From Adineta ricciae (Eukaryota > Rotifera > Eurotatoria > Adinetida > Adinetidae), in contig CAJNOJ010000252.1 in assembly GCA_905250025.1 (NCBI GenBank), positions 1 to 64,000 of the forward strand: a stretch of 64,000 nt of DNA. The letters run 5' to 3'. The notes below the pieces were generated by a model that did not search any database, was not told where the DNA came from, and saw nothing but the letters and a program-made list of their open reading frames with translations. The position numbers and the translations under genes were made by a program. Each line of letters begins with the position of its first letter. The stretch's first letter is position 1. Below are positions 4,348 to 33,468 of this stretch, in pieces.

Positions 4348-5298
4348 TCATGTTCTTGCCGATGGCGCAACAGTTCGCTGTTGTTTTGGTTTCCAGAATA
4401 GTATCTTTGCTAACTTTGGCTTCAGCGGAGATAACGCAACCAGATTTGCGTATGGCATTACTATTGCTGGCATATGGGCAAATGCTCCGATATATACTGC
4501 AATAGTATAACTATCGAAGAGAAATGCGTCAAGCCATGATGTAACAGTGGCAATAACATAAGGAAGGCTGAAAGCGAGATAAATGATCGAAACTGAAGCT
4601 AATTGGATAATCATTTTTCTTTGTCGACGCCAATTTACTGCCTGTTGTAAACGACGTTTCTGCAGAATGACACGGATTATTAGAGTCCAACTAAATACAC
4701 CAATGAATAGAATTGGTAACGCGCAATTCATAAGTGACTCGAACCAACTGAACCATTGAGGAATCACGTAGCTATAACAAACGACACCACAAAAAAGCAA
4801 AAAACCATTATAAAAGCGTTGACATGGACATAGAACGATCAAGTAAAAATAAAGAATTGGTGCATAACTGGAAACGAACCCAAGTGGAATGTAATGAAAC
4901 AAAATACGTTGACGCGCTGTACGAAGAAAATTAGAATAAAATATCAGAATATGTCTTTCGATAGAGTTCCAGAACATGATATGAAGAGCTCCGTACCATA
5001 TTCCATAATCAACATAACCATGTAGAAAACAAAGTGAAACATTCAATGGATGTTGATGACCAACTCGGTAGAAGTTCAGCGTCATTGATAGATCAATCAT
5101 CATTTGAAGAAAATTGTAGATCAGGAGCAGAACTATAGAATGATTCTGCAGATTTTTCCACAAGAGTTTATCACGTAGAAGATGGTAGAACAAAAAGAGA
5201 TAACAAGGAATTGACAATAGTTGACCAGTTAATAAAATTGCAAATAGATCGTTTTTCCATTGCGAAGAAGAGATAGAATCATCCCCGAAATCATTCAT
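4348..5298 (-). CDS. Seven-helix receptor, rhodopsin-like, ERH type
   Basis: A single-exon frame of 316 residues from the ATG at 5298. An upstream in-frame ATG at 5415 would add 39 hydrophobic residues, and I prefer the inner start because the extracellular N-terminus then matches its relatives. Seven hydrophobic segments are evident. The end of TM3 carries SIERHILIFYSN, an ERH in place of the DRY motif, followed by the basic second loop. A basic stretch (NWRRQRKMIIQLA) leads into TM6. The ERH signature, the FHY-P motif before TM4 and the overall layout are shared with the receptors at 31533 and 39159, so they form one paralogous family. The plausible role is a plasma-membrane chemosensory or peptide receptor coupling to G proteins. 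The ligand is unknown and the family is strongly diverged from vertebrate receptors. Confidence 0.8.
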   Translation of the reverse strand: MNDFGDDSISSSQWKNDLFAILLTGQLLSIPCYLFLFYHLLRDKLLWKNLQNHSIVLLLIYNFLQMMIDLSMTLNFYRVGHQHPLNVSLCFLHGYVDYGIWYGALHIMFWNSIERHILIFYSNFLRTARQRILFHYIPLGFVSSYAPILYFYLIVLCPCQRFYNGFLLFCGVVCYSYVIPQWFSWFESLMNCALPILFIGVFSWTLIIRVILQKRRLQQAVNWRRQRKMIIQLASVSIIYLAFSLPYVIATVTSWLDAFLFDSYTIAVYIGAFAHMPAIVMPYANLVALSPLKPKLAKILFWKPKQQRTVAPSART

Positions 5299-7878
5299 TA
5301 TGAGATATGTGAACGCAGTCTTGATATCGTACTGGAACGTTTTGTAGAGAATAAAAATAATGTATCTTAAAAACACAGACAACCCATCACAAAAGAATGA
5401 AAATAACCTATGCATGATTCATAATTTATAGGCTAATGCAACCTTTGTTTCATAGAGACAGATACTCTAAAGTTCTACTGACATATTTCTTTCCATTGCG
5501 TAGTAAATTTGTCGCCCACAAGCAATTTGATTTACAAAGAAACATACCAGGATTAACTACGCCATTCGAAGAAAACAACATATTTGACGGCACGAACTAA
5601 ATCAGACTCTATGCATCTCAATCATATTTTCATCATAGTAACTTTTGATGAATTAGTTGGTCTTTTCTTTCTTGACACTTCCTCTTCCGACATGCATATG
5701 TTCTGCCTATTCCCATCGCACAGAGTGGCAATATCTACCAGAGATCGAACGGAATTCACAGCTGAGTATAGTTTGCCTTTCTTTAGTAGCAATGCATTTT
5801 GATAACGATAGTACTTCCACTGATCTTTACAGGTTGTTTGATTCTAGTGAGAACTTGTTGTATAGAAGCGCAAGAGAATGAAAATTGAGTGTGGCGGACA
5901 AATTCGCATAGCTTCGAAATAAAATGTGGAGAACAAGGGAAAGAGGAATATAATATCAATACATACAAAGTCGCTGATCACATGAATAGCTACGTTTACA
6001 CAAACAGATCTATAACAATAATATTATATTTAGTCTTCAATCTAGACTTTCCTTTTCATTTTTTATTGTTTTTGTTTTCGCAACTTGGAATTTATCATAT
6101 CCTAATGCATTGGTGGGGAGGTATATTACAGACATGTCTTCACAAGTACAACCAACTGATATTCGTAGTTAAATTTTATTTTTTGGTAATTGAAGAAATA
6201 GAGAAAATATTTGTTACACAGAATAACGCGCACACTTGTATGAACATCAGTCATATGACATAATAGGTCAATGCTTCATTTTTATTGTTAACAGTGGAAA
6301 ATGAATCGAAATGCAATTGAGAACGAAAGTTCTCAGTGAAGTATTACGAAACAACATCGTAATTATCGTGATATTCTCATCATTACTTTCATGTCGATCC
6401 TCTCCTTTATCGATGCACCCTCACTACATTGTGTCTTTATTGAGTAGTTCAGTACGTTCTTTTTCTTGATTCATAGACATCCATCTGCTTGTCCCTGACT
6501 AACCATTCTGTCGGGCCTGTCGGAGCACACGCTGTGAGTAAAATATTGTCAATTAATACTGTAATTAGCATTTTACTATCATTCCTGGAATGAATTGATC
6601 ATTCGATCTTATCTCTAATCGGTGACTTATTTCTATATTGGAGAAAATCAAATAGGAGATACTGTAGCAAAACACTGCAAGTTAACATTGTAATAATACT
6701 ATGTATACGTAGCATTTGACATGAACAGCGTACTGTGCTAGTAGTCGGTCAAATTGTGATGCTTTCCTCGCGATTCACAGCGTGGGAGGGGATGGAGTGA
6801 GCTCGCTTCTCCCATTTTTCCGGAATATCAGGGGAAATTTCATTACTATGCGGCTGCGAAATGTTTTCCTATTACGAAGTTTCTGAAAAGACAGGCACAA
6901 ATTGCGAAAATTGCTGAACAATATCTACTCAGAGGAAACCACAGGAACGCTCTGGCCAATGACAATGTACCTGATAGTGTGGCCAATATATCTAGTACGT
7001 ACTGCCTCGGAAATTGCTGCCAAGATATTCATGAGACATCAGAAATAAAAGCTTGCATAACTGCGCTTACACACAACGTGGCGTAAAGTTTACTTTTCCA
7101 CAGATAGGAACTGATAAAAGAAACATCGTGCATCACGTATACTCGTTCAAAAATTTCGTGATTTCTAGAAATATACTCTTATATAATAAAATCGTAATTA
7201 TACAATATCTAATAAGACAATTCGAATTCGAAAAAGTAACTGCTCAAATCTTAACAAGTAGATCGCTTTTGGTCTTTATAAATCTAACTAGATTTTGTCC
7301 ATGTTGAACATGATATGACATATACCGATGAAAAATTGTACTTCTGTTAATTTTTTTCATCAAACGATGTAAAAATGTAGTGTTTGCTTGTGCACGCGAG
7401 AACTGAAGGAAACATGTGACATTTGTTATAAATATTGCATGTTACCACCTTAATCCTCTTTGGATAAATTAAGGTTTTTAATTCGGATTGAACAATGGCT
7501 TATTGACTTTTCCCCATTTTGTTAGAAACTATTGTACTTTCTCTTTCTGTTAAAATGAATTATCACCAAAAGCAAAGAATATCTAATATTTTCTTTTTTT
7601 TTCAACTAAGTAATTTCAATGAGTGCCAGCAAAACGCGCAGTACAGAAGAAACCGGAAAGTGCTTCTTTCGATTTTTTTTGTTTGTCAAGATTTAGATCA
7701 TGGTGTGCGCTTTCGAGCGTAGGAAATGAGAAAAAAGCAGTCACCATAATTTCCAACTCAAACTTGCACTCACAAGTTTTTTGCTGCGTATGGATAGGAA
7801 ACGAAAGACTTTTTTTCTTTATTACATCATTTGTAGTGTCTGTTACAATAAAATCCAGTGTCGAGAAAACTGTACAAT
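5299..7878. other. Long AT-rich spacer with one possible exon
   Basis: About 2.5 kb with no gene I can name. On the plus strand at about 6772-7086 an open frame of roughly 100 codons follows a good acceptor (GATTCACAG). It contains FLKRQAQIAKIAEQYLLRG and a Cys-containing tail, and its composition looks coding. No downstream partner exon was found. Other frames (5584-5881, 5889-6263, 7053-7307, 7519-7892) are low-complexity or hydrophobic by chance and are not called. Confidence 0.25.
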
Positions 7879-10410
7879 CTATTTGTACGTGATCAGATAT
7901 TCTGCGAATGCTTGTGCATCATGGTAAGTGACAAAAATATGACTTCCATCAGTCGTTGTATCATAACCAGGTGGCGCAGTTATCATAGATGAATCACCTA
8001 CTATCGATAACCCGACAAGAACACGGGCTATAAACATACATTTCTCTCCATTCTCATTGGGGACAGCAAAACCATTGCTGTAAGACGCTTTTGACGAAAA
8101 GTAAACGCCTTTCCCATATACCAAACCTATTAATACGATTCATATGCAGATAACTGAAATACAGAAATCATCCTCACCATTCACACCACCGTAACTGCGG
8201 TTGAAACATTTGTTGATTATAGAGTCTGCTGCCGATTCAGGACATCCATGGTATAAACGCTGCTCTGTATCAGCCTTCAATCGTTTTCGAAACTCTTCTC
8301 TATGTATGATATACTGCTGGAACCAGTGCTCGTTCTGAATGCGCTCGATTTTGATTATTTTGTTGTAGTGTCCTTCCATTCCTTGGTCAAATGGAACTGC
8401 CACCGACTTGTATTCGTCTGTCGTAGAACATATTTGACAACGTTTCGTGCCTCCTTGGCTGGGTTCCCATGTTACTGGCAATAAACGATTGAGTGCTATC
8501 GACGACTCTAGAAAAAGACATTTACAGCGGTTGAAAGGCTTTTCCACGGCGTGAGGATGAGAGTGTCAAAACTATAGCGACGGCTGCTTGTGTTTCGATA
8601 ATGTCGTAGTTACCTTCATATGGTGTCAGAACTTCTCTGCAAAATGCGCCATAAGTTTCTATTTGTTCAGGTGAAATGACGAACTTTATCTGTAATTGTA
8701 CGTTTTGCGCGAGAAGTTGTTTTTTCGCCTCGCTTACCATGGTTCTAATAATAATTTTTGTTGAACTACTGTAAACGTCGCATCCAATAGCTGAAAACGC
8801 AATCGAAGTAAAATGATACTGAGCCACATATTTGACGACGTTTGAGATAATATCTATAATTGATTCTCGAAGCAGATGCTCGTTATTAACGCGGTTCCAG
8901 TTGAGAAAAAATATTCTTTTACATGGTAGTCGTCCTGATGGTGTTGAAATTATCAAGGATTTAACCTGGTTTTTAGATTGCATAAGGTAGTCTGTTTTAA
9001 CCTCATCACCAGCTGCTTGAATGACGGCTTTCGTTAAGATCGATGACGAAGCACTAACAGCTATGACATCCATCTTCCGAAAAACGACAATAATGAGCAA
9101 ATACTTTATCTCATGACACTTGTCTAATATCTTACCTTTTGTTGAGCGATCTCGCCGTTCTCGACTTCAATTGTTCCACTTCCAACTTTTGTTGACACGA
9201 TTTTTATTCTGGCATTCTTTATTACACCAATCTGCTTTTGTAACTCCTCGTATATATTCTCTTCAGTTGATTCGATAACAAAGAAGATGGCGATTGGATG
9301 TGTAGCTAGCTGGTGGCAAACTTCTGTCACGAAAATCTCAGCCATAAGAGCAGGCGAACAACCAAAACCGCCACAACCGATGGCTGGAAATGAAATGCTT
9401 TGATAACCCTCATTTACTGCTTCCGCGATTGTTTCAGAGAATAATTTTCGGATAGATCGTCGAAGTACAGTACTATTAGAGCCTGGCCGCCATTCTACAA
9501 AGTAGATCTTCTTGGATGCAAGTTGTCCGTCAGCAGCAACAGAAAGAACCGATTCGGCAGATGAGCTTTCCGATTCAGTTGTATATGAATCCCTCACTGA
9601 ATTCCCACCAGCTGCGAGAACACTTTCTAACATTCCACACGACAATGCGTTTACGACAATAACATCAGTCTGAAAATATCTCACAATATATTTATCTTCT
9701 CATTCGTTATTTTGTTCTTCTAACTTCAACATACCTTTTGTGTTATTAAGCTACCGACACAAACATTAATATATTTCACCACTATTTTATTGGTTGCTAA
9801 AGTCTATAATGAATATTGAAAACATTTCTATATTAGTTCCTTAAATGCTAGGATGCGGGTGTATATTGCTCTGTCTACTGTTAGCATGTACTACCTGACA
9901 GCATACAGCGGAAGTGTGAAGTGAAGCATCTTGTCTTGTATAACAGGCGCAACATTCGTCGCAAGTGATAATCATCAACGGGCATTTTTGATTGTGTTTA
10001 TCTGAATTCAACTTTAGCACCTTAGCCATACAAACCGAACATGTTATTAATTCATAGGCACAATTTTCTTCATGCTTGAGTAATTGATCATATTGAATGT
10101 ATCGAGCGCAACTACGACAACCGTATTGCTTATAACGACATGGAATCCTCAGCTGAGACAACTTTTCAGTGATTGTCTCCGGACAATTCTGCGCCACACA
10201 TGGCAAGGAAGTATTCCCGCACGGATCTTTCTGGGAAATTCTTGTTTGTAAACATTGATCACAAAATGATCTTTTACAATTACCACATCTCACAGGCTGC
10301 CATAGTATACCCTTACACACAGCACATATCAATTCTTCATCTTGAAGTGAATTACTCACACGGCTACTCGGAAGGTGAGCCTTCGAGCGTTTACTACCGC
10401 CGCCACCCAT
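7879..10410 (-). CDS. RING/TRAF zinc finger-macro-macro-PARP fusion protein
   Basis: Six exons can be joined in one frame to give 740 residues: 10410-9895, 9803-9735, 9669-9136, 9073-8548, 8507-8178, 8126-7879. Every junction is GT-AG with matching phase. Residues 2-6 (GGGGS) fit an N-myristoylation signal. Residues 27-70 are a cysteine-rich RING (CAVC..RCGNC..FCDQC) and about 70-172 are TRAF-type zinc fingers. Residues 173-373 and 374-548 are two macro domains; the first keeps a glycine-rich loop (FPAIGCGGFG), the second is more degenerate. About 549-740 is a PARP14-like catalytic domain with YHGCPESAADSI, VYGKGVYFSSKASYS and a C-terminal QAFAEYLITYK. The third triad position aligns to Ile in HIFVTY, predicting mono-ADP-ribosylation. 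It would act as an E3 ligase and ADP-ribosyltransferase, possibly membrane-tethered. The 40-bp intron after exon 4 is the least certain junction. Confidence 0.75.
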
Positions 10411-11656
10411 TGTGCAGTTTCTCGCAAATCCTTTTTCTTCTTATAATAAAGCAGCTCTACTCTATTCTTACCTTTTATTGTCATCGATAAAAGACATCGA
10501 ATCGTTTATGTCACATGTTACTTGAAATAGTATTACTGTTCGATACCGTAAAAAGCTAAAAGTGTGTATATTGACTTTATGTATCAACTTCGATAAGGAA
10601 AGATTTACTTAAGCTGACAGCATAATTTCACTTATGGATTTTGATCAATGCTTTTATCTGATACAAGTTATTATGCGCAATAAAAAGTTGGAAGAAAAGA
10701 AAAAGTCTTATGTGATATTCATTGTGTTCTTCCATTCGAAAATTTTCTTCGGTCGTTTATCGTGACGTATAGGGGTGGATGAATTATTTCTGAAAGTGGT
10801 CAGTTTCGACTTGAGTCAAATCGAATATTGCTATTCATTTCCTGATGTGTAATCTCTATGAATGATCTTTGGTATAATCTTCAAAGCAAATTGGATGTTT
10901 GAAGTATATTATCTTTATAACGACATTTTCTCACACTTCAATAGTCTTGATTATTTCCAGCAGTGAAGACGGATGGGATGGCTGATTTTATGCACAGAAA
11001 TTGCTCAATATTTTTCGCAATTAGCTGTCGTTTTCCAGAAGTCATGTCATATAGAAAAATGAAACGTGGAAATCGTCGTATATGAGCACTCAGATGATCT
11101 TCGGCCGACCTCACCACCAATTTTCTTCATTTCTTGAAACTCTGCAACCCTATTGGTCGCTTCCATCAATTGTCTGTAGCAGACGTAGGATTGATTTTTT
11201 TTCCGAAATAGAGTGGATGACGACTTTCCTCTGGATCCATAGAAGCATCATGGAAAGCAAAAAGTCAAACTCTCTTCTCCATGAATGTAGATATATGTTG
11301 TTTTTATGGAATTTCTCTCGAACTGATGTAACCGTTGGTAGATACAAGGGAGAATGCGTGTTTTTTTCCTCCATTTCCAGTCGCATTTCTCATTGCAGAA
11401 ATTATACAGATTCAACACTGTAACATATTTCTTCGCCTTCATTAGCTTGGCAATCTCATCTATTTTTATGCTTTTTGATTCTTTTCAATGCATATTAATC
11501 CGATAATGCATGCACTGTGTCGTAAGCTTTTAGATAATCATCCTTCGCTCAATAAAGATTTGTTCTTAAACTTTAGCTTTTATCGCATATTACAACAAAT
11601 GCGATCAACGGATCTTCTTCGTTCTCAGTTTTCACTGCTATAGAGGTGTAACTTTA
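10411..11656. other. Intergenic region, copy-specific indels
   Basis: This lies upstream of both the PARP fusion gene (minus) and a receptor (plus), so it should contain both promoters. The homologous stretch in A2 (21370-22427) lacks about 120 bp corresponding to 11041-11160 and about 110 bp near 11200-11310. The short open frames seen here (10938-11120, 11082-11442) are therefore not conserved and are not called as genes. Confidence 0.5.
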
Positions 11657-12565
11657 ATGATGTTTACTAACTCTTTGAATTCCGAAGTTTGGTATATTCC
11701 GACTGATATCTTAAGAATAACATGTGATTCAACTACAATTGGCATTTCATTTTGCCTGTTAATTATCATTGTAACTAACAAAGCATGTCGAACGGTACCC
11801 ATGATGTTAACTGCGAATACTTGCTTCACTGAATTTATCTGTGCGTGTGTCCTATTAAGTATGACAGTTTTCGTATTGCAAAATGACATCAAGCAAATTA
11901 TCTACGAAGATTCTCTTTGTCGCGTTCGTGGTTATTTATTAATAAGCATTACTGTTGCACAAAATTATTCTTATGTATTACAAGCAATTTATCGTTACGT
12001 TACAATTGTGCATCCAAGTCGTCTCTTTTGGCAATCATCTCGTTTCCAAACGTGTCTTATTTGCTTAGTATGGATTTTTTCTTTCACCATAATCCTACCT
12101 GTGCTATTAACTAATCAAATTGTATACAACTCTTCCAATCAGATATGTCATCCCCCATTGGGAAGATCGTTTGGTATTATTTATATAACAGTTATACTTT
12201 ATTTGATTCCGAATATATTTCTTAATATTGTTTATTCAAGATTAGTTCGATTTGTTCGCGAAATGAGCAAAAGAGTGACATCGACGAATGTCATAGCTCG
12301 TGCAGAACGGGATTTAAAAATGGTAAAAAGCATTATAACAATAACAACTATTCTTGGAATATTGGGCCTTCCGTTTGCTTTTCTCATCTTTTGGTCTCTT
12401 TTTACAACACCACCTCGCGACCATTTCCGTATTGCCTTTATCGGTGTTGATATGTCAACCACAGCTGTCATTATTGCAGTATGCAAAACGACACCCCCAA
12501 TTAAAACTGCTTTGTCAGAAAAACTAGCTGCGTTACAAACAATATTTACTACCGCAAACGCATAA
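11657..12565 (+). CDS. Seven-helix receptor, YRY type (A1 copy)
   Basis: A single exon of 302 residues starting at tandem ATGs. Seven hydrophobic segments are visible. A conserved Cys (residue 88) precedes TM3, and TM3 ends with IYRYVTIVHP (residues 111-120), a YRY variant of the rhodopsin-family DRY motif. The TM5-TM6 loop is basic (RAERDLKMVKS) and TM6 has a LGLPFAF bend. It is likely a chemosensory or peptide receptor in the plasma membrane, ligand unknown. The copy at 22428 differs at about 16 of 302 residues by eye, most of them conservative, so both copies look maintained. It converges with the receptor at 13232-14167. Confidence 0.8.
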   Translation: MMFTNSLNSEVWYIPTDILRITCDSTTIGISFCLLIIIVTNKACRTVPMMLTANTCFTEFICACVLLSMTVFVLQNDIKQIIYEDSLCRVRGYLLISITVAQNYSYVLQAIYRYVTIVHPSRLFWQSSRFQTCLICLVWIFSFTIILPVLLTNQIVYNSSNQICHPPLGRSFGIIYITVILYLIPNIFLNIVYSRLVRFVREMSKRVTSTNVIARAERDLKMVKSIITITTILGILGLPFAFLIFWSLFTTPPRDHFRIAFIGVDMSTTAVIIAVCKTTPPIKTALSEKLAALQTIFTTANA

Positions 12566-12639
12566 GAGTTTTTTGTATAAGTTAGAACCTCATATATATA
12601 AATTTATCCGTTAATGAAATGCACCACCATTCATCATTC

Positions 12640-12745
12640 ATCGATGTGAAGCTAGTACGAACAAACGATGTATTAGATAAAAACTTTTTTACTAAATATG
12701 TCCCCGTCCATTCGATGCAGTATTAAGTTCTGAGTCGAATGGTGT
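12640..12745 (+). repeat. Partial foldback-type repeat
   Basis: The sequence beginning GATGTGAAGCTAGTACGA and continuing through CCCCGTCCA and a CTGAGTCGAATGGTGTAG block matches one arm of the foldback element at 59033-59403, with small internal deletions. It is absent from the corresponding place in A2, where a different foldback element sits, so it is a copy-specific insertion or remnant. Confidence 0.6.
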
Positions 12746-13231
12746 AGTTTTCGGACATTATCGATCTGTATTTCATCATAACGTTCCGTGAGGTTGACAG
12801 ACAGCTCTGCCGCCTACAACACTAGGTCAATCCTAGAAACTGTTCGAATGATCCAAAACCGCAACTTAGAAGCTGACTTAGGTATTCACACATTCACAAT
12901 GAAAGTCAAACAATTTGCTCATCTTGTTTGTCTCTTCTATTTTCTTCTATATGAAGCCAGCTCAAGATCTTCATAGTCCATCGGGTACTAAACTTCCAGG
13001 ATCTATTTGTTGAAAAGCATTTTCCTACAGATCGTAGTCAATTTTTCTCGCAGGCAAATTCATATGAATTTTCTGTTTGTCTATCTTTCCTTCTCGATTT
13101 ACACATACGCACCAAGTGCAAAGACTTTATTTCGGACGAATAAATAAGACAACATTAACTCATTTTGTACAAGTGCACAATGTATGTCAGTCTATACACT
13201 GAATCATCTTCAGTTGCAACATGAAAAAGAT
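12746..13231. other. Spacer between convergent receptors (A1)
   Basis: No gene is seen. The sequence at about 12738-12790 matches part of an arm of the foldback element found in A2 at 23707-24190, in the opposite sense, so the two copies of the block carry different rearranged states of the same repeat. Confidence 0.4.
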
Positions 13232-14167
13232 CTATCTACATTGAATCATTTTCTTCAGTTCTGTCCGATAGATTTTTCCTGTAAAAACGTATAAGAAAAA
13301 TGAAATGAAAAACCCGCCTTGTTGCCAAACAACTGTTATACTTCGGATCGTTATATAATAAGGAGTACTCATTGACGGAATCAATGTGACTATAATATAA
13401 GTTATCGCAGATGGAGTAAAAAACAGGAGATACACGCCAACTTGTATAATCATCATTCGAGCTAATTGTCCTTCGGTACGACGATGAGAACTAGCTTGAA
13501 TTATCGGTGCTACACGGTGTTTCTGACTTCGAATATTATAAATTGTCCATACGCCAAATATGCTCAACATAATCGGTATCAGAATGTAATAAAGAATCAC
13601 TCGACTCATCAGATAAGCCGCCACCAATGTTGTTGAATACTGTAAACATCTTCGATTTCCAGGATCGCCAGAATCATAGTAATATATGATTAGAAAAGGA
13701 CACATATAGATGGTAGATATAATCCATACGATAAGAATAATTCTTCGCGCAACATACACTTGGCTCAAACGACGTAAACGAATAGATTCAGAACTGGAAA
13801 AGAATCGATCAATAGATGCACATACTAACATTAACCCGTACCATAACGGTGCTGTATAGATGAAAAACGGAATTACTCTGCACATAATCGGGCTGTCCTG
13901 AATAATGAACTGAAAACCATATTGAAGTATCAAATTAATAGGCGAAACCAACACGTATATTAAGATAGGTGGAATAGCAGCCATAAAATAATAAGCGCAT
14001 GCAGATGACCGAAGAACTCGTCGATAAAGTACATTAAAATTTAATATACTTGTCGTTACTATCAGTATTGCCGCGAAAGAAAAACTATAGACAAGGGGTT
14101 GCCGAGCTGCCTCAACGAGATTATATCCATAGGACGATGGTGGTGTTCTATTATTCATTGATGACAT
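13232..14167 (-). CDS. Seven-helix receptor, DRF type (A1 copy)
   Basis: A single exon of 311 residues from the ATG at 14167 (MSSMNNRTPP). The open frame extends to 14230, but that codon is TTG. An N-glycosylation site (NRT) lies in the short extracellular N-terminus. Seven hydrophobic segments follow. TM3 ends with ASIDRFFSSS, a DRF form of the DRY motif, followed by a basic loop (RLRRLSQVYVARR). A Cys after TM4 (NRRCLQY) could pair with the Cys before TM3. The third loop ends RRTEGQLARMMIIQ before TM6. This is a different subfamily from the ERH and YRY receptors here. It is intact in both copies, with only scattered substitutions. Confidence 0.8.
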   Translation of the reverse strand: MSSMNNRTPPSSYGYNLVEAARQPLVYSFSFAAILIVTTSILNFNVLYRRVLRSSACAYYFMAAIPPILIYVLVSPINLILQYGFQFIIQDSPIMCRVIPFFIYTAPLWYGLMLVCASIDRFFSSSESIRLRRLSQVYVARRIILIVWIISTIYMCPFLIIYYYDSGDPGNRRCLQYSTTLVAAYLMSRVILYYILIPIMLSIFGVWTIYNIRSQKHRVAPIIQASSHRRTEGQLARMMIIQVGVYLLFFTPSAITYIIVTLIPSMSTPYYITIRSITVVWQQGGFFISFFLYVFTGKIYRTELKKMIQCR

Positions 14168-15797
14168 TCGAATAGGAAAATGGATTAAAATTGTGATAGA
14201 TCTTCTATATGAATCAGTGAAATAACACAAAGATTCTCATGGGATATGAACTTTATTTCCATTAGCCATATCCTGAATAAATTAACATTTAATACAAAAG
14301 AATATTTCAAGCTGATGTTAAATTAATGACAGCGTTCAATAAAGATTATATGCGCATGTAAGTATTCCATTCTTAATAATGAGAACATAGAGAGAAAGAA
14401 GGTCAATTTCTGCGCTTTTTTCATACTAATATCACGAATGTCTACGCGACCTGACGAATTGTAGGGAATGAATGTTTATTCAACACTTTTCCCTTCGATA
14501 GAAAACGAGGATCTATATAAAAATCTTGTTCTAGTGTATGAAAAATGATCATACTATATGCGTTAGGGTATGACAAAATTCCGAAGTATAAACCGGTGAA
14601 AAAAAATCACCATTTCACAACGTTTGGTTTCGATTGCACAAATTTGCCAAATGATGGTACATGCAACGCTACGACCACTAGAATTAATTGGTTGTGTACA
14701 GTTTAAGGGTGATCGTCTCGATGTTCGGATCACAATACACAATGGAAGCCCTTCATTAGAAATGTTGCCATCTGACAAACGTGTTGTCCAACTATGGAAT
14801 GGTAATCGAGTTGTTGATATCAATTCATTCAACTTCTTTCGTAATAAGCTATTGAAAAATGCGTTCTATCAATTTTAAAGAGAATTTTCCAATTTCGATC
14901 TGTCAATTAGCATCGACTGACGGTCGGCTAAATCATGAACTTTTCATTCACATAGTTTATATATATTCAAGAAGGTAATTAGTAAAATAGTTATTCGTTT
15001 ACAGTGCACTTGTCTTAATTTGTACTTGAATGAATTCTTCGATATTTCTGATAAAATATTACTTTTACAAAAAGTATAGGAATTATTCGACAAATAATAG
15101 GAAAACCTTCGTACAAACCAATCAATATGATTATGCCTTCAATGGTATTATATTTATCAACGTATTTTGAAATCAAGGGGGGAAAGCGAGACTTCATACT
15201 TCAAATACTATCTGAAGTAGATGAAGTTTCGCTTTTTTTTCTCCTTGGATTTTCCACTACATGGTCAATCGCCTTCAACATTTCAACAATTTGGTTGTAC
15301 ATCTCCATTCTCATTAAGTATTTGCTACGTTTTTTCACATTGACTGATCGTACATATTCATCAACTCTTCTGCAAAATGCTTCTTCCACGATATGGAAAT
15401 AGATTTAAATGTTTTTATTTTCGTTCAGAGAGGTATTTAAACAGCCAGAACAAAGACTTGTTTACTTAAAAGTTAATCCTCCAGTTTAGTAATGCATTGG
15501 AGTTTCACTTCAAAACATTTTAATTCTTCCTAGTTCAAATCACAAAATTTTAATCTATCCTAGTTTTTATGAAAATTTTGAAACTTACCAGTTATCAGTT
15601 TTAAAGTCACCGAGTACAGATTCAAATTTGAATTATTCCTAGGTGAGATCGAAATTCTGATCTGTACTAGTTCGAGTTCAAACTGAACTGAATTTTGATG
15701 TGTACTACGGCGTATACATGTAAATTGGAAAATATAACACTATACTTTTATAATCATGAATAAAGTGAACACGACGAGATGAGAAGATTATTTGAGT
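14168..15797. other. Spacer with decayed ORF fragments and AT-rich repeats
   Basis: Three things are seen. (1) On the plus strand at about 14624-14878 a frame reads like protein (RPLELIGCVQFKGDRLDVRI and onward), but the A2 counterpart (about 26015-26257) has a stop and a 2-base indel, so it is probably a decayed gene. (2) On the minus strand at 15201-15389 a charged 62-residue frame (EEAFCRRVDEYVRSVNVKKR) is open here, but a stop interrupts it in A2. (3) At about 15460-15720 a degenerate repeat with recurring TCCTAGTTCAAAT and AAATTTTGATCTGTACTAG blocks is shared with A2 at 26860-27110. I assign no function. Confidence 0.35.
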
Positions 15798-17783
15798 CTA
15801 TCGAATTACAAAATTTTGTATTCGATTATTTCCACGGTCGATAACATAAAGTTCGCCATGATGATCAAAGACTAAATCATTTAAACCATCAAAGTGACGT
15901 GATGTGAATCCACGACCATGTCCACCAACAACAACAGCACCTCGTTGTTCTCCTTGAAGCCAACGCATCACTCGATTGTTGCTATCGTCTGCCACATACA
16001 ATGTACCATTAGTATCAACGAACAATCCATTGGGATTACAAAGTTGGTCAAAATCATCTCCGCAACCACCGTACCCAGCAATAATGATACCTTCTGTTGC
16101 ACCTTTATTCCACTTCGAAATACGATGATTAGCATTGTCTGCTACATATACATTATGTTGTTGATCGACAAAGATGAAAGAAGGAAAGCGGAGCTGATTA
16201 AGATTAGAGCCTTCTCCATGGCCACCAGCCACACTGGTTACAATAGTGCCTTTCATTTCATACCGTCTAACTTCATGTTTGTCGAGATCAATAATGTAAA
16301 GACCGCCATCGTTATCGATGGTCATATCCGCACATCCAATATTGTTAATGTAAATTGTTCCTTCTTTGGTGCCATTACGATGATACCATTGTATGACTCG
16401 TCGATTCTTAGAATCACAAATAATGAGACTATTCGTCACACTATCAATCACTACACTAGTTGGAGAATCGAATTGATCCAATTGTTTTCCTTTACCATTA
16501 CCGCCAGCCACCACTGTTCCATTCTCATCACCCAACTTCCATTGAACAATACGATGGTTTTTTTCGTCAGCAATAAACATAGTTCGATTCTCATCGATGA
16601 AAAGACCTCTAGGAGTATTGAGTTGATTGGTAGCAGTGCCTGATCCATGACCACCAGCAACAGTAATGCCTATCTCTAGAACAAGAATGTAATAATAACC
16701 GTTTAAATAATAAACAAAATCTCCGTTATACATGGTCCTATTATATTTTTACACTTTCTTTCTTTCTTCCTGTATAATCATCAAATGAATGATTGTAAGT
16801 GTTACATATAAGAGTTTTCCAACCTTTTTTCTCAGTTTTTTTCTCTCAAAAATTCGGTTTACTGTGAAGATCAGAATAAGGAAACTCGCACTATAGGTTT
16901 CTTAACAGTCCTATATAATAGTGTTATAATGATGATTTTTATCTTACTTAGATTATCTCGCAAATCTGACAATGTTTTGTTAAAATAATCAATTTTTTGC
17001 TGGTTTTTCGACTGAAGCGTATTTAAATCGTCGATTTTTTCTTCGTTCATAGTTTTTTCCTTGAGTATGTGCTGATATTTCATATTTAAGATGATAATCC
17101 ATACACAACAACCAATTAACAGTATTCCGAGAATAATCGATAAGAGAATAAAAACTAACGAACATTTTCGTGTCATTGATAATATTTTTAATGATTGATT
17201 TTGTTCCTTCAATTTACATGTTCTTTTTCGACCATCGTCAATAATATTCATTTCAATATTATTGTTTTCACAAATATTTTCTTGAGGCAAAGCTAAAACA
17301 TATTTTATAATCTATGAATAGAATCAAACAAATATGATTTACCAGTGTCTATAGAATATATGCCATCATTATCATCTACTAATTGTTCGATGACAGGTGG
17401 CATTATTATAGATAAACTTCGCATCGATTCATTTAATCCATTCGGTTGTAGTTCTTTCATATGTTCTAAATAAGATATTATACAATTAGTCCCATGTGAA
17501 AGTCTCTATTTGAAACAAAAGAACAGCTACCAGTTAGAAGTTTTACAGCATCATAACATTGAATCTCATAGAATGTTTTGATTAAAAACGTGAAATCATT
17601 GGAATTAATTTTATCTTGTTCGAAAAGAGATTGTATAATCGATAGAGTGCCATATAATGATAGATCATCTCCATATTTTTTTGGAACATCATTATATAAG
17701 AAAAAATGTAAACGGTGACGATCATCAACACTAAGGCGTTGTTCTACTTTTAAAATAACAGCGCGTAAATCATGATCATTCAT
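15798..17783 (-). CDS. DED-like domain-transmembrane-NHL propeller protein (A1 copy)
   Basis: Four exons join in frame to 532 residues: 17783-17531, 17465-17343, 17292-16948, 16675-15798, all phase 1 with GT-AG borders. Residues 1-84 resemble a death effector domain: helical, with LRAVILKVEQRL near the start and FYEIQCYDAVKLL at the position of the family's R-D-L-L motif. Residues 171-194 are one transmembrane helix (LVFILLSIILGILLIGCCVW). Residues 195-240 form a short coiled coil. Residues 243-532 are six NHL blades with repeated GGHGSG-type linkers and motifs such as LYVADDSNNRVMRW, enough for a six-bladed propeller. The helix with basic residues before it suggests a type II protein with the death-fold inside and the propeller outside. 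That would suit a receptor-like adaptor, but this is inference. The large third intron (272 bp) may hide a small exon. Confidence 0.7.
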
Positions 17784-19885: not shown

Positions 19886-21369
19886 GTCGTCCTGATGGTG
19901 TTGAAATTATCAAGGATTTGGCCTGGTTTTTAGATTGCATAAGGTAGTCTGTTTTAACCTCATCACCAGCTGCCTGAATGATGGCTTTCGTTAAGATTGA
20001 TGACGAAGCACTAACAGTTATGACATCCATCTTCCGAAAAACGATAACAATGAGCAAATACTTTATCTCACGACACTTGTCTAATATCTTACCTTTTGTT
20101 GAGCGATCTCGCCATTCTCGACTTCAATCGTTCCGCTTCCAACTTCTGTTGACACGATTTTCATTCTGGCATTCTTTATTACACCAATCTGCGTTTGTAA
20201 CTCCTTGTATATATTCTCTTCAGTAGATTCGATAACAAAGAGGATGGAGATTGGATGTGCAGCTAGCTGGTGGCAAACTTCTGTCACGAAAATCTCAGCC
20301 ATCAAAGCAGGCGAACAACCAAAACCGCCACAACCGATGGCTGGAAATGAAATGCTTTGATATCCCTCATTTACTGCTTCCGTGATTGTTTCAGAAAATA
20401 ATTTTCGGATAGATCGTCGAAGTACAGTACTATTAGAGCCTGGCCGCCATTCTACAAAGTAGATCTTCTTGGATGCAAGTTGTCCGTCAGCAACAACAGA
20501 AAGAACCGATTCGGCAGATGAGCTTTCCGATTCAGTTGTATATGAATCCCTCACTGAATTCCCACCAGCTGCGAGAACACTTTCTAACATTCCACATGAC
20601 AATGCGTTTACGACAATAACATCAGTCTGAAAATATCTCACAATATATTTATCTTCTCATTCGTTATTTTGTTCTTCTAACTTCAACATACCTTTTGTGT
20701 TATTAAACTACCGACACAAACATTAATATATTTCACCACTATTTTATTGGTTGCTAAAGTCTATAATGAATATTGAAAACATTTCTATATTAGTTCCTTA
20801 AATGCTAGGATGCTGGTGTATATATTGCTCTGTCTACTGTTAACATGTACTACCTGACAGCATACAGCGGCAGTGTGAAGTGAAGCATCTTGTCTTGTAT
20901 AATAGGCACAACATTCGTCGCAAGTGATAATCGCCAACGGGCATTTTTGATTGTGTTCATCTGAATTCAACTTTAGCACCTTAGCCATACAAACGGAACA
21001 TGTTATTAATTCATAGGCACAATTTTCTTCATGCTTGAGTAATTGATCATATCGACTGTATCGAGCGCAACTAGGACAACCGTATTGCTTATAACGACAT
21101 GGAATCCTCAGCTGAGACAACTTTTCAGTGATTGTCTCCGGACAATTCTGCGCCACACATGGCAAGGAAGTATTTCCGCACGGTTCTTTCTTGGAAATTC
21201 TTGTTTGTAAACATTGATCACAAAATGATCTTTGACAATTACCACATCTCACAGGCTGCCATAGTATGCCCTTACACACAGCACATATCAATTCTTCATC
21301 TTGAAGTGAATGACTCACACGGCTACTCGGAAGGTGAGCCTTCGGACGTTTACTACCGCTGACACCCAT
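19886..21369 (-). pseudogene. RING/TRAF-macro-macro-PARP gene, truncated A2 copy
   Basis: The exons have the same lengths as in A1: 21369-20854 (516), 20760-20692 (69), 20626-20093 (534), and the start of the fourth at 20030, which is cut at the N after 48 codons. The N-terminus begins MGVSGSK, which still fits myristoylation. All RING cysteines and the first macro domain are intact, and all splice sites are conserved. The missing second macro and PARP regions are an effect of the gap, not of mutation, so the real gene is probably intact. Conservation of exon lengths and sites in this copy supports the single-gene model. Confidence 0.75.
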
Positions 21370-22427
21370 TGTGCAGCTTCTCGCAAATCCTTTTTCTTCT
21401 TATAATAAAGCAGCTTTACTCTATTCTTACCTTTTATTGTCATCGATAAAAGACATCGAATCGTTTATGTCATATGTTACTTGAAATGGTATTACTGTTC
21501 GATACCATAAAAAGCTAAAAGTGTGTATATTGACTTTATGTATCAACTTCGATAAGGAAAGATTTACTTAAGCTGACAGCATAATTTCGTGCGGAAGAAC
21601 ACGTGAATGAAGGTGTATGTAAGAAAGCTGATAGTTTTGATCAATGCTTTTATCTGATACAAGTTATTAGGCGCAATAAAAAGTTGGAAGAAAAGAAAAA
21701 CGCTTCTGTGATATTCATTGTGTTCTTCCATTCGAGAATTTTCTTCGGTCGTTTATCGTGACGTATAGGGGTGGATGAATTATTTCTGAAAGGGGACAGT
21801 TTCGACTTGAGTCAAATCGAATATTGCTATTCATTTTCTGATGTGTAATCTCTATGAATGATCTTTGGTATAATCTTCAAAGAAAATTGAATGTTTGGAG
21901 TATATTATCTTTATAGTGACATTTTCTCAAACTTCAATAGTCTTGATTATTTCCAGAAGTGAAGACGGGTGGGATGGCTGATTTTATTCACAGAAATTGC
22001 TCGATATTTTTCGCAATTAGCTATCGTTTTCCAGAATTCCATCAATTGTCTGTAGCAGACGTAGAATTGATTTTCTTATGAAATTTTTCTAGAATTGATG
22101 TAACCGTTGGTAGATACAAAAGAGAATGCGTGTTTTTTTCTCTATTTCCAGTCGCATTTCTCATTGCAGCAATGAGACAGATTCAACACTGTAACATATT
22201 TCTTCGCCTTCATTAGCTTGGCAATCTCATCTATTTTTATGCTTTCTGATTCTTTTCAACGCATATAAATCCGATAATGCATGCACTATGTCTGAAGTTT
22301 TTAGATAATCACACTTCGCTCAATAAAGATTTTTATAAAAACTTTGACTTTCATCGCATATCACAACAAATGCAATCAACGGATCTTCTTCGTTCTCAGT
22401 TTTTACTGATATAGAGGTGTTACTCTG
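21370..22427. other. Intergenic region (A2)
   Basis: This is the counterpart of 10411-11656, shorter because of the two deletions described there and with a small unique insertion near 21590-21635. It should contain divergent promoters for the PARP fusion gene and the receptor at 22428. No gene is seen. Confidence 0.4.
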
Positions 22428-23336
22428 ATGATCTTTACTAATTCTTCGAATTCCGAAGTTTGGTATATTCCGACTGATATCTTAAGAATAACATGTGATT
22501 CAACTACAATTGGCATTTCATTTTGTCTGTTAGTTGTCATTGTAACTAACAAAGCATGTCGAACGGTACCCATGATGTTAACTGCGAATACTTGCTTCAC
22601 TGAATTTATTTGTGCGTGTGTCTTATTAAGTATGACAGTTTTCGTATTACAAAATGACATCAAGCAAATTATCTACGAAGATTCTCTTTGTCGCGTTCGT
22701 GGTTATTTATTAATAAGCATTACTGTTGCACAAAATTATTCCTATGTATTACAAGCGATTTACCGCTACATTACAATTGTGCATCCAAGTCGTCTCTTTT
22801 GGCATTCATCTCGTTTCCAAACGTGTCTTATTTGCTTAGTATGGATTTTTTCTTTCACCATAATCCTACCTGTGCTCTTAACTAATCAAATTGTATACAA
22901 CCCGTTCAATCACATATGTCATCCACCATTGGGAAGATCTTTTGGTATTATTTATATAACAATCGTGCTTTATTTGATTCCAAATATATTTATTAATATT
23001 ATCTATTCACGTCTAGTTCGATTCGTTCGCGAAATAAGCAAAAGAGTGACATCGACGAATGTCATAGCTCGTGCAGAACGAGATTTAAAAATGGTAAAAA
23101 GCATTATAACAATAACAACTATTCTTGGAATATTGGGCCTTCCGTTTGCTTTTCTCATTTTTTGGTCTCTTTTTACAACACCACCTCGCGATCATTTCCG
23201 TATTGCCTTTATCGGTGTTGATATATCAACCACAGCTGTCATCATTGCAGTATTCAAAACGACACCTCCAATTAAAACTGCTTTGTCAGAAAAACTAGCT
23301 GCGTTACAAACAATATTTACTACCGCAAACGCATAA
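22428..23336 (+). CDS. Seven-helix receptor, YRY type (A2 copy)
   Basis: A 302-residue single exon, the counterpart of 11657-12565. It keeps the Cys before TM3, the YRY motif (IYRYITIVHP), the basic RAERDLKMVKS loop and the LGLPFAF bend. The roughly 16 substitutions relative to the A1 copy are mostly Ile/Val/Met exchanges within helices, with a small cluster (PFNH for SSNQ) in the second extracellular loop. It is likely functional. Confidence 0.8.
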   Translation: MIFTNSSNSEVWYIPTDILRITCDSTTIGISFCLLVVIVTNKACRTVPMMLTANTCFTEFICACVLLSMTVFVLQNDIKQIIYEDSLCRVRGYLLISITVAQNYSYVLQAIYRYITIVHPSRLFWHSSRFQTCLICLVWIFSFTIILPVLLTNQIVYNPFNHICHPPLGRSFGIIYITIVLYLIPNIFINIIYSRLVRFVREISKRVTSTNVIARAERDLKMVKSIITITTILGILGLPFAFLIFWSLFTTPPRDHFRIAFIGVDISTTAVIIAVFKTTPPIKTALSEKLAALQTIFTTANA

Positions 23337-24617
23337 GAGTTGTTTGTATAAATTGGAATCTTAAATATATAAATTTATCCGTTAATGAAATGCGCCATCA
23401 CTCCAACAACATGATAAAAAGATGTTAATATAGATTTTTCTTAAAACGATGAGTATAGTTTCCTAAGCCATTTGGTAAATATCTACACATATTTTAGCAC
23501 AAATATATGTATTTGTTAGAGACAAGCAATCTGTCGTAGGCGAGCGGAATCAATTCTCCCCAAATGTCCAAAGGAGCTCCCAAATGGAAAGGATTCTATA
23601 TGAGGTATGACTAGTGCTTAGTTTTTCTCTCTATCTCTAACTCTATTATGTAGTAGGAATATAATGTGAATTAATTAGCATCCTTGAATAACAAAACTTG
23701 AGAATTTTGCCATTCGGAAATATCTGGCCGTTAAGATGAAAAAAGAATTAGAAAAAGCCAGTTATTTTTCTATTGTGTATTGCTGAAGTAAAGCAGATTT
23801 AGCTCATCTGTCAACCTCATGGAGCGTTATGATGAAATACAGATCGATAATGTCCGAAAACTAATCTAAATGTCATAAATTTCACCATAAATACTCACAT
23901 ATCCAGTAGGATTCTAACATCATTTACGGCGCATCATAGTGTCTTTACGCGGACCCTCATAAAACATTCAAAATCGTGTGAAAAGTGAATTAATAGATAA
24001 GCATCTATAGTGAAATTTATGACATTTAGATCAGTTTTCGGACATTATCGAACTGTATATCACCACAACGCTCCATGAAGTAAATACATGAACTAAGTGC
24101 GCTTTACTTCGGCAATATACGCAGAATAGAAAAATAACTGGCTTTTTCTAATTTTTTTCATCCTTACGGCCGGATGCTGCCAAGTGGCAACATGTTGACA
24201 GACAGCTCTGCCGCGTACAACATTAGGTCAACCATAGAATTTAGAAGCTGACTTAGGTATTCACGCATTCACAATGAAAGTCAATCGATTTACTCATCTT
24301 CTTCTACATGAAGTTAGCTCAAGATCTTCATAGCCCATCGTGTACCAAACTTCCAGGATCTAATTATTGAAAAGCATTTTCCTACAAATCGTAGTCAATT
24401 GTTCTCGCATGCAAATTCGTATGAATTTTCTGTTTTTCTAGCTTTCTTTCTCGAATAACACATACAAAATTGACATTTTCATCTATCGTATACGCACCAA
24501 ATGCAAAGACTTTATTTTGGACGAATACATAAGACAACATTAACTCATTTTGTACAACAAATGCACAATGTATGTCAGTCTATACTGAACCATCTTCAGT
24601 TGCGACATGAAAAAGAT
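23337..24617. other. Spacer between convergent receptors (A2)
   Basis: Apart from the foldback element at 23707-24190 I see only AT-rich non-coding sequence. It is about 600 bp longer than in A1, mostly because of that element. Confidence 0.5.
23707..24190. mobile_element. Foldback (inverted-repeat) element, A2-specific
   Basis: Two inverted arms of about 185 bp (23707-23892 and 24003-24190) flank a roughly 110-bp centre. Outer ends begin with related TTGCCA(T/C)T(T/C)GG sequence and share GGCCGT(T/A)AGATG-like and AAAGCCAGTTATTTTTCTAT blocks. No coding capacity is seen. Block A1 has only a rearranged piece at this site, so the insertion is specific to one copy. It fits a MITE or foldback element mobilised by another transposase. 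No clear target duplication was found. Confidence 0.65.
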
Positions 24618-25553
24618 CTATTTACATTGAATCATTTTCTTCAGTTCTTTCCGATACATATTTCCTGTAAAAACATATAAGAAAAATGAAATGAAAAACC
24701 CGCCTTGTTGCCAAACAACTGTTATACTTCGAATCGTTATATAATAAGGAGTATTCATTGATGGAATCAATGTGACTATAATATAAGTTATCGCAGATGG
24801 AGTAAAAAACAGGAGATACACGCCGACTTGTATAATCATCATTCGAGCCAATTGTCCTTCAGTACGACGACGAGGACTAGCTTGAATTATCGGTGCTACA
24901 CGGTGTTTTTGACATCGAATATTATAAATTGTCCATGCGCCAAATATGCTCAACATAATCGGTATCAGAATATAATAAAGAATCACTCGACTCATCAGAT
25001 AAACCTCCACCAATATTGTCGAATACTGTAAACATCTTCGATTTCCAGCATTGCCAGAATCATAGTAATATATGATTAGAAAAGGACACATATAGACAGT
25101 AGATAAAATCCATACGATAAGAATAATTCTTCGTGCGACATACACTTGGCTCAAACGACGTAAACGAATAGATTCAGAACTGGAAAAGAATCGATCAATA
25201 GATGCACACACTAACATTAATCCGTACCATAACGGTGCTGTATAGATGAAAAACGGAATTACTCTGCACATAATCGGACTGTCCAGAATAATGAACTGAA
25301 AACCATATTGAAGTATCAAACTAATAGGCGAAACCAACACGTATATTAAGACAGGGGGAATAGCAGCCATAAAATAACAGGTGCATGCAGATGACCGAAG
25401 AACTCGCCGATAAAGTACATTAAAATTTAATATACTTGTCGTTACTATCAGTGTTGCTGCGATAGAAAAACTATAGACAAGGGGTTGTCGAGCTGCCTCA
25501 ACTAGATTATATCCATATGACGATGGTGGTGTTCTGTTATTCATTGATGACAT
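24618..25553 (-). CDS. Seven-helix receptor, DRF type (A2 copy)
   Basis: The counterpart of 13232-14167: 311 residues from the ATG at 25553, single exon. ASIDRFFSSS, the basic loop, NRRCLQY and RRTEGQLARMMIIQ are all kept. Differences are scattered single residues (for example NAGN for DPGN in the second extracellular loop and NMYRKEL for KIYRTEL at the C-terminus), so this copy also looks maintained. Confidence 0.8.
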   Translation of the reverse strand: MSSMNNRTPPSSYGYNLVEAARQPLVYSFSIAATLIVTTSILNFNVLYRRVLRSSACTCYFMAAIPPVLIYVLVSPISLILQYGFQFIILDSPIMCRVIPFFIYTAPLWYGLMLVCASIDRFFSSSESIRLRRLSQVYVARRIILIVWILSTVYMCPFLIIYYYDSGNAGNRRCLQYSTILVEVYLMSRVILYYILIPIMLSIFGAWTIYNIRCQKHRVAPIIQASPRRRTEGQLARMMIIQVGVYLLFFTPSAITYIIVTLIPSMNTPYYITIRSITVVWQQGGFFISFFLYVFTGNMYRKELKKMIQCK

Positions 25554-27191
25554 TCCAATATGAAAATGGATTAAAATTGTGATAGATCTTCTATACGAAT
25601 CAGTGAAATAGCACAAAGATTCTCATGAGATGTGAACTTTATTTCCATCAGACATATCCTAAGTGAATTAACAGTCAATAGAAAAGAATATTTTAGGCTG
25701 ATGTTAAATTAATGACAGCATTCAATAAAGATTATATGCGCATATGAATATTCCATTCTTAATAATGAGAACAGAGAGAGAAAGAAGGTCAATTTCCGCG
25801 CTTTTTTCATACTCATACCACGAATGTCTACGCGACCTAACGAGTTGTAGGGAAGGAACGTTTATTTAACACTTTTCCTTCGATAGAAAACGAGGATCTA
25901 TATAAAAATCTTGTTCTAGTGTATAAAAAATGATCATACTATATGCGTTAGGTATGACAAAATTCAGAAGTATAAACCGGTGAGAAATCACCATTTCACC
26001 ACTTTTGATTTCGATTGCACAAGCTTGCCAAATGATGGTACATGCAACGCTACGACCACTAGAATTAATTGGTTGTGCATAGTTTATTGGTGATCGCCTC
26101 GATGTTCGGATCAATACACAATGGAAGTCCTTCATTAAAAATGTTGCCATCTGACAAACGTGTTGTCCACTTATGGGACGGTAATAGAGTTGTAGATATC
26201 AATTCATTCAACTTCTTTCATAATAAGCTGTTGAAGAATGCGTTCTATCAATTTTAACGAGAATTTTCCAATTTCGATCTGTGAATTACCAACGACTGAC
26301 GGTCAGATAAAATCATGAGCTTTTATTCACAAAGTTTATATATTCAAGAAGGTAATTAATAACATAGTTATTCGTTTACAGCGCACTTGTCTTAATTTGT
26401 ACTTGAATGAATTCTTCGATATTTCTGATAAAATATAACTTTTACAGAAAATATAGGAATTATTCGACAAATAATAAGAAAAACCTTCGTGCAAACTAAT
26501 TAATACGACTATACCTTCAATGGTATTATATTTATCAACGTATTTTGAAATCAAGGGGAAAAGCGCGACTTCATACTTCAACTACTTCACTTTACTTCAA
26601 ATACTATCTAAAATAGATGAAGTCTCGCTTTTTCCCCCTTGGATTTTCCACTCCATGGTCAGTCGCCTTCAACATTTCAACAATTTGGTTATACATCTCC
26701 ATTCTCATTAAGTATTTGCCACGTTTTTTCACATTGACTTATTGTACATATTCATCAACTCTTCTGCAAAATGCTTCTTCCATGATATCGAAATAGATTT
26801 AAATGTTTTTTTTCCTCGTTCAAACAGGTATTTAAACAACTAGAACAAAGACTTGTTTACTTAAAAGTTAATACTCTAGTTTAGTAATGCATTGGAGTTT
26901 CATTTCAAAACATTTTAATTCCTCCTAGTTCAGATCAAAATTTTCATCTATCCTATAGTTTTTATTAAAATTTTGAAACCTACCAGTTCAGTTTCAAAGT
27001 CAACCGAGTACAGATTAAATTTGAATTATTCCTAGACGAGATCGAAATTCTAATCTGTTACTAGTTCGATTTAAAACTGAACTGGATTTTGATCTGTACT
27101 ACGACGTATACATGTATATTGGAAAATATAACACTATACTTTTACAAACATGAATAAAGTGAATACGACGAGATTAGAAGATTAATTGAGT
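25554..27191. other. Spacer (A2), counterpart of 14168-15797
   Basis: This contains the same decayed fragments as A1. The plus-strand frame near 26015-26257 has an in-frame stop (GCATAG) and a 2-base difference that shifts the frame. The minus-strand charged frame near 26640-26780 carries a stop. The degenerate AT-rich repeat lies at about 26860-27110. I call no functional gene. Confidence 0.35.
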
Positions 27192-32522: not shown

Positions 32523-32599
32523 CATACAATTCTTACAAATGTGATTATATATTTGAAGGATGGACGTAGGTACGATTTATGCTGTGGAAGACACCCTTA

Positions 32600-33170: not shown

Positions 33171-33468
33171 ACATGCAACTCGACTCGACTGTCTATTCAT
33201 TTATCTCGAAGATACCATATGGTTTGTGTCTGAACGAAAGCACAACAAACTCAGTCGTTTTTCCAAAAGATAATTGATACAACGTTTTACGAATAGAGAG
33301 TATGACGGATCGTGAGATCTGCTAGTCCCAAATCACCAAAATAAACACAGATTCGCACGGCGATTCGGCGACTAAACAGAATAAACAATACTAACGCGAC
33401 AAGTGTATGACTAATTTGCTTTCCTCTACTTCATACGCACTGTTGTCTTCAAAATAGAACGATCTTGA

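Follow-up and report, generated by a model that had tools for sequence, protein, structure and literature searches.

The interferon-linked crosstalk between ADP-ribosylation and ubiquitylation in vertebrates involves PARP14, PARP9 and DTX3L, which in the account of Kar et al. are separate but linked proteins, with PARP14 consisting of RRM/KH repeats, three macrodomains and a WWE domain that precede the catalytic domain (Kar et al., 2026, PMC13224862). A broader survey describes clade 3 PARPs as heterogeneous and the duplication of PARP14-like genes as frequent, and mentions in its section 12 clade 3 PARPs of Dictyostelium that carry a U-box at their N-terminus (Perina et al., 2014, PMC4245714). 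For macrodomain proteins of Dictyostelium, the legend to Figure 1 of another study includes both the U-box and PARP in its list of domains and names pARTg (PMC5087659). Taken together, these two sources suggest that the U-box PARP is probably pARTg, which would carry a macrodomain as well.

We have compared these systems with a gene of the bdelloid rotifer Adineta ricciae that is contained in a stretch of 64,000 nucleotides (contig CAJNOJ010000252.1, positions 1 to 64,000), referred to as the window. As judged from the DNA, the gene is real in the outline given by a preliminary description and is predicted to combine, in one frame, a RING, TRAF-type zinc fingers, two macrodomains and a PARP14-like catalytic domain.

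Gene structure and second allele

The gene extends on the minus strand from position 10410 to 7879 and is divided into six exons, which join into a single open frame and are separated by introns of 91, 65, 62, 106 and 51 bases, all with GT-AG borders. Their phases (0, 0, 0, 1 and 1) are compatible, as had been proposed, and the spliced frame encodes 718 residues rather than the 740 initially claimed. Exon 1 (9895..10410, 516 nt, 172 residues) begins with an MGxxxSK N-terminus and contains the RING and three TRAF-type zinc fingers. It is followed by intron 1 (9804..9894, phase 0), which holds stops in the frame of exon 2, and by exon 2 (9735..9803, 69 nt, 23 residues), which encodes the β1-strand of macrodomain 1 (KIVVKYINVCVGSLITQK) and includes an AATAAA from position 9791. 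The body of macrodomain 1 resides on exon 3 (9136..9669, 534 nt, 178 residues), at whose end the apparent β1-strand of macrodomain 2 is located, and macrodomain 2 continues on exon 4 (8614..9073, 460 nt). The catalytic domain is distributed between exon 5 (8178..8507, 330 nt), which contributes its first part including the triad residue H613, and exon 6 (7879..8126, 248 nt), which carries the remainder with the triad residues Y645 and I700 and the stop codon. Another AATAAA (7818..7823, minus strand) is found 55 bases past the stop codon at an offset that is identical in the other allele.

A Pfam search of the spliced protein recovered PARP (4.5e-21), Macro (1.1e-11), zf-C3HC4_2 (8.4e-4), Sina_ZnF (8.1e-4) and zf-TRAF (0.044), and the domains exceed chance expectation. 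Of the proposed composition, the PARP and macro assignments were thus borne out by this search, whereas the RING, the Sina zinc finger and the TRAF-type finger scored below the curated cut-offs of Pfam. Deltex C-terminal, WWE, RRM, KH and MATH domains were not detected by Pfam at E≤0.1, a threshold at which weak KH domains could escape. The best relative of known structure is the catalytic domain of PARP14 (1.5e-24), followed by those of PARP15 (2.8e-21) and PARP10 (3.9e-21), and further solved relatives include the catalytic domain of PARP12, the macrodomains of PARP9 and PARP14 and, for the RING part, LNX and TRAF6. In a genome-wide Pfam search for Macro, this gene was represented by its second macrodomain only (6.9e-4), and exon 1 was not listed in the equivalent searches for RING, Sina and zf-TRAF, in one of which 150 of 410 candidates were scored; judged by profile, the protein is therefore divergent.

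A second copy of the gene is located elsewhere in the window on the same strand. It comprises exon 1 (20854..21369, 92% protein identity), exon 2 (20692..20760), exon 3 (20093..20626) and the first 145 bases of exon 4 (19886..20030), where it is broken off by an assembly N at 19885. The remainder is found on contig C490 (L056, 1-870), which begins inside macrodomain 2, leaving 178 bases of exon 4 uncovered, and which, over the 6 kb of C490 that were compared, runs colinear with window positions 8750 to 3193 and shares 79-95% identity with them. Since the first piece starts at the N and the second continues colinearly, the two look like one broken allele, and both are most likely parts of a single other allele that was split by an assembly join; a very close duplicate would be the less likely interpretation. 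A tandem duplication with a truncated copy was considered and rejected for the same two features of the assembly. In this probable allele, all ten splice borders are the same, in line with the conservation of exon borders that had been claimed, and introns 1 and 4 contain 2-base indels.

Among the differences between the alleles in the compared codons, 25 are synonymous and 41 nonsynonymous (dN/dS 0.49), with an excess of synonymous changes relative to neutrality for the whole gene (P=0.0055) and for the macro and PARP parts alone (P=0.0024). In exon 1, 15 nonsynonymous and 5 synonymous differences are no better than neutral (P=0.47), and purifying selection on the RING part is thus not seen in this comparison. 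None of the 14 residue changes in exon 1 affects a zinc ligand, although with a probability by chance of 0.177 this is not significant. Together with an apparently degenerate loop in macrodomain 2, the missing signal of selection in exon 1 would suit a decaying pseudogene that is open only because its alleles are young. We regard this as very improbable in view of the macro-PARP synonymous excess, the intact catalytic triad and the fact that the compared exon stretches of either allele contain neither stops nor indels.

Several other features of the window were recorded. It contains two long direct repeats (8929-17435 and 19886-28831; 28833-36367 and 36589-43931) composed of pieces that are 90-95% identical. 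Single Ns at positions 19885, 28832 and 36588 mark the ends of the repeats, which are probably allelic pieces that were laid side by side by scaffolding and not true tandem duplications. Two divergently oriented GTPase-like genes (54976-56859, minus strand, and 57252-58886, plus strand) match MMR_HSR1, with AIG1 below the cut-off, and a frame with Kelch repeats in Pfam (60373-61296, minus strand) is built from 144-base units that are 81-91% alike, which suggests a fairly recent duplication of units. Long open frames resembling 7TM receptors by eye are located at 11570-12562 and 31512-32519 on the plus strand and at 4351-5418, 13235-14236 and 46465-47487 on the minus strand, the first of which matches Pfam 7tm_1, while no Pfam match was obtained for the frame at 4351-5418. 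Scans of the window with Rfam and for tRNAs yielded no matches.

The macro-PARP core and its N-terminal slot

Both macro parts of the protein score above the 22-bit cut-off of PF01661 (26.2 and 26.5 bits), and each is interrupted by a phase 0 intron at the equivalent position just before a (T/M)DVI motif, as previously noted. The internal duplication that had been deduced from this correspondence is an old one. In all ten relatives with two macrodomains, macrodomain 1 of the window gene matches best with macrodomain 1 and macrodomain 2 with macrodomain 2, for which reason a recent event within the gene was rejected. By eye, macrodomain 1 contains a phosphate-loop-like sequence in exon 3 (SISFPAIGCGGFGC), and the loop of macrodomain 2 in exon 4 is degenerate (SIAFSAIGCDVYSSS).

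In the catalytic domain, residues H613, Y645 and I700 form an H-Y-I triad and thereby fit the pattern H-Y followed by I, L or another residue other than Glu, which we take to be characteristic of mono-ADP-ribosyltransferases. The His and Tyr are found in all 20 aligned loci, among them L056, the other allele of this gene, and the distant PARPs L057 and L058, whereas the third position is Ile in 14 and Met in 6. With a C-terminal PARP domain nearest to PARP14, PARP15 and PARP10, a preceding macrodomain and this triad, the protein has the features of the clade 3 PARP14-like group. It is not a strict orthologue of PARP14, since it contains two macro stretches and none of the RRM, KH and WWE domains at the Pfam threshold used.

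Pfam searches of the 130 Mb genome, which were carried out exon by exon and provide lower bounds, returned 125 matches to PARP and 40 to Macro. We have analysed 20 loci with PARP matches and their flanks, of which 17 (L039-L055) contain macro, PARP and upstream sequence, the others being the allele L056 and the two distant PARPs. A genome search with the whole protein gave PARP-core matches on twelve further contigs (C298, C479, C170, C340, C200, C364, C16, C633, C28, C60, C64 and C58) and at two more places on C105, all of which lie outside the comparison of upstream sequences. The 17 loci consist of six pairs that are 88-97% alike and five singles and thus represent at least 11 genes besides that of the window, with five of the six close pairs being located 5-44 kb apart on the same contig. 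A second macrodomain was found in 10 of the 17. In their second macro and PARP parts, these loci are 42-54% identical to the window gene, and a rough FastTree phylogeny of the same region places the window gene and L056 inside the family, adjoining a clade of L039, L040, L043, L044 and L047-L052 (support 0.79).

The N-terminal parts of these genes differ. A tblastn search with exon 1 against the 20 PARP loci returned nothing at E≤0.01, and a RING-like cysteine pattern was not found in frames of at least 45 residues within 2.6 kb upstream of the 17 loci. Among ten upstream frames analysed by Pfam, ankyrin repeats were identified in L039 and, together with a sub-threshold WWE domain, in L047, PDZ domains in L044 and L055 and a fibronectin III domain in L046, while five frames (three in L045 and one each in L053 and L051) showed no domain. 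Since no RING was found upstream in the 11 other macro-PARP genes that were compared, we consider the window gene as one member of a family with an exchangeable N-terminus, and, as read from the genome sequence, the PARP14-like family comprises at least 12 genes whose N-terminal part varies. In L044 and L046, the N-terminal module (PDZ and fibronectin III, respectively) and the β1-strand of the macrodomain share one open frame, illustrating that the window gene is not the only member in which the core is fused to a module of this slot, and an equivalent connection is presumed for the ankyrin genes and L055. Four recognised N-terminal modules (RING-TRAF, ankyrin, PDZ and fibronectin III) would thus be combined with a single macro-PARP core, which suggests that bdelloids have diversified a PARP14-like enzyme by changing the part that aims it.

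The RING-zinc-finger exon and its junction

The preliminary description had recognised RING/TRAF zinc fingers. Both elements are supported for exon 1, and the assignment can be refined to a RING of the TRAF6 type that is accompanied by no Deltex C-terminal domain in Pfam. The RING contains eight cysteines (C29, C32, C42, C45, C50, C53, C64 and C76) and is followed by three CCHC fingers (C91-C98-H113-C117, C124-C127-H139-C143 and C150-C153-H165-C170), the last ligand being located two residues before the end of the exon. These 20 Cys/His positions, which can be read as zinc ligands, are invariant in four aligned sequences, namely the two alleles and two stand-alone relatives (L069 on C36 and L070 on C265) that can be aligned with almost the entire exon 1 at 34-35% identity. 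A profile built from the four sequences matches the RING and zinc fingers of TRAF6 with an E-value of 7.6e-13 over profile positions 27-165, thus covering both elements together. The RING lacks the histidine that we take to be usual in such domains and an obvious version of what we assume to be the arginine linchpin, and an AlphaFold2 model of exon 1 based on two sequences has a mean pLDDT of 34.5 and thus does not confirm the fold.

The frame of L069 continues intronless into a tail that is coiled-coil-like by eye and then stops, its likeness to exon 1 ending at the last zinc ligand. L070 (C265:128450-130450) contains one in-frame stop in its RING region, which could reflect a small intron, an error or a pseudogene. 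In neither relative was an MG start found. A search of the genome with the whole protein, in which 62 of 145 candidates were scored, gave no macro or PARP match on contigs C36 and C265 and revealed no further match to the RING part at E≤0.001, and a match on C470 that begins at residue 137 is probably an extension from macrodomain 1. Ten RING-TRAF genes taken as examples are 22-27% identical to exon 1, and among the viral contigs scanned with this exon, six stretches fit the pattern and none is a relative.

The fusion could be real and its RING part nevertheless serve as a targeting or oligomerising module without ligase activity, in which case the protein would be a localised mono-ADP-ribosyltransferase. 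This would agree with the binding modules that occupy the slot in other family members, with the apparently neutral evolution of exon 1 between alleles and with the weak Pfam score of an eight-cysteine RING variant, but it accounts less well for the fact that neither the other allele nor the two relatives of 34% identity have lost any of the eight RING cysteines or the twelve putative finger ligands, and for a TRAF6 match that extends jointly over RING and fingers. We consider this alternative possible but rather unlikely.

The connection between exon 1 and the core relies on exon 2, the bridging exon of 69 bases that had been predicted and is present. It encodes TLATNKIVVKYINVCVGSLITQK, supplying the first strand of macrodomain 1, and contains no in-frame Met, with an in-frame stop located directly upstream. 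The first Met in exons 2 and 3 is at residue 36 and thus beyond the β1-strand. Since no start codon would preserve this strand, a further exon must precede the macro part, and exon 1 is located 91 bases away. Among 80 GT/AG pairs in the stretch checked, seven would keep the frame open from exon 1 into exon 2, and the exact junction therefore rests on its match to the consensus (CAG|GTAGTA) and its conservation between alleles. In all 17 macro-PARP relatives, an acceptor AG is found at the same place before the body of macrodomain 1 (in L047 three bases earlier), a correspondence that, at the level of sequence, is beyond chance. A pattern search located a β1-like stretch just 5' of macrodomain 1, followed by a phase 0 GT, in nine of these relatives (L043-L046, L048-L051 and L055, the match in L051 being shifted by two residues towards the C-terminus), whereas the other eight gave no match to the pattern upstream of macrodomain 1. 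The join of exon 1 to exon 2 is thus supported, not proven, and we expect that the two would be spliced together in vivo.

The AATAAA at 9791 within exon 2 counts against the fusion, as it might mark the end of an mRNA that encodes the RING part only. The locus would in this case consist of two genes, a RING-TRAF gene that terminates at the stop near 9841 or after the AATAAA, and a macro-PARP gene that either receives its 5' end by trans-splicing or begins elsewhere. Such a division would also be compatible with a RING frame that stays open for 17 codons beyond the donor and with the presence of repeats resembling a spliced leader in the genome. However, a leader placed on exon 2 would provide no in-frame Met before residue 36, leaving the macro part without a start codon that retains its β1-strand. 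Moreover, the read-through tails differ between the alleles in frame and length (open frames of 199 and 204 residues, with an indel between them), and by eye they do not resemble the tail of the stand-alone relatives. We consider two separate genes to be improbable.

The repeats consist of 41 copies of TGCTTATTACAACTTACCAAGAG, which deviates by one base from what we take to be the 23-base spliced-leader exon of bdelloids, all copies carrying a T in place of the first G. In a search for the presumed leader with up to two mismatches, these 41 were among 44 matches, while its exact sequence was not found in the genome and reversed-pattern controls gave no copies. They are located on C6, C8, C43, C77, C79, C99 and other contigs, often as inverted pairs about 150 bases apart, and support the bdelloid origin of the DNA. 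A trans-spliced exon of 23 nucleotides common to two bdelloid species has been described (PMC1925144).

Proposed activity and relation to known systems

Our preferred explanation, in which we place reasonable though limited confidence, is that a bdelloid PARP14-like gene acquired, in its exchangeable N-terminal slot, a TRAF6-type RING together with three zinc fingers, resulting in one protein of 718 residues that would work as follows. The catalytic domain would most likely transfer single ADP-ribose units. Macrodomain 1, with its apparently retained phosphate loop, would most likely bind ADP-ribosylated targets, and macrodomain 2 would probably be structural. The RING-zinc-finger part would most likely recruit an E2 enzyme and ubiquitylate either targets marked or read by the very same polypeptide or the protein itself; alternatively, a TRAF6-type RING might control the turnover of its own protein. 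Ubiquitin-ligase activity is the least secure step of this proposal, with its presence and absence being about equally probable, and the coupling of ADP-ribosylation to ubiquitylation is similarly conditional. The N-termini of the two alleles (MGGGGSKR and MGVSGSKR) would be candidate N-myristoylation signals if the motif rule that we assume for MGxxxSK applies, and if this end is myristoylated the protein would act at a membrane.

In a more far-reaching and tentative version, which we consider less likely to hold than not by a wide measure, one polypeptide would ADP-ribosylate and ubiquitylate the same target, perhaps generating, at membranes and in cis, a hybrid mark of ADP-ribose and ubiquitin, and the core would be re-aimed by swaps of its N-terminus. 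It is within this version that the suggested antiviral or stress role would belong, perhaps as part of a modular repertoire for defence and stress. If true, the natural single-chain arrangement would offer a compact system for asking whether two marks are placed in succession on one target.

Compared to its sister macro-PARP genes (L039-L055), the window gene shares the acceptor and the His and Tyr of the triad but differs in its N-terminal part, the RING pattern not having been found in the others. The stand-alone genes L069 and L070 have the invariant zinc ligands in common with exon 1, whereas their frames run past the position where the exon ends. As in TRAF6 (PDB 5vo0), the RING is followed by CCHC zinc fingers, thus reproducing the first features of a TRAF protein, but the coiled coil, for which there is no room, and the C-terminal MATH (TRAF-C) domain, for which Pfam gave no match, are not found, and an extra cysteine replaces the RING histidine.

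With vertebrate PARP14 and PARP9, as described in the source cited above, the protein shares a PARP14-type catalytic domain behind its macrodomains and a link to a RING E3. In vertebrates this partner, DTX3L, is separate and of the Deltex type, whereas the rotifer RING is of the TRAF6 type and part of the same chain, where its N-terminal location and the absence of a Deltex C-terminal match in Pfam distinguish it from Deltex E3 ligases.

The closest parallel in architecture is provided by the clade 3 PARPs of Dictyostelium, which, to the extent described in the cited section, similarly unite a ubiquitin-ligase-type fold and a PARP catalytic domain on a single chain, and this kind of protein thus already exists. 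The literature searched contained no report of a combination of macrodomain, RING and PARP in oyster; the protein described here may already be included in predicted proteomes of bdelloids. The amoebozoan protein carries a U-box, whereas in the rotifer gene its place is taken by a zinc-binding RING of the TRAF6 type and zinc fingers, and the two fusions are likely of independent origin. As far as our literature searches reach, the zinc-binding TRAF6-type version of this arrangement would be new in an animal.
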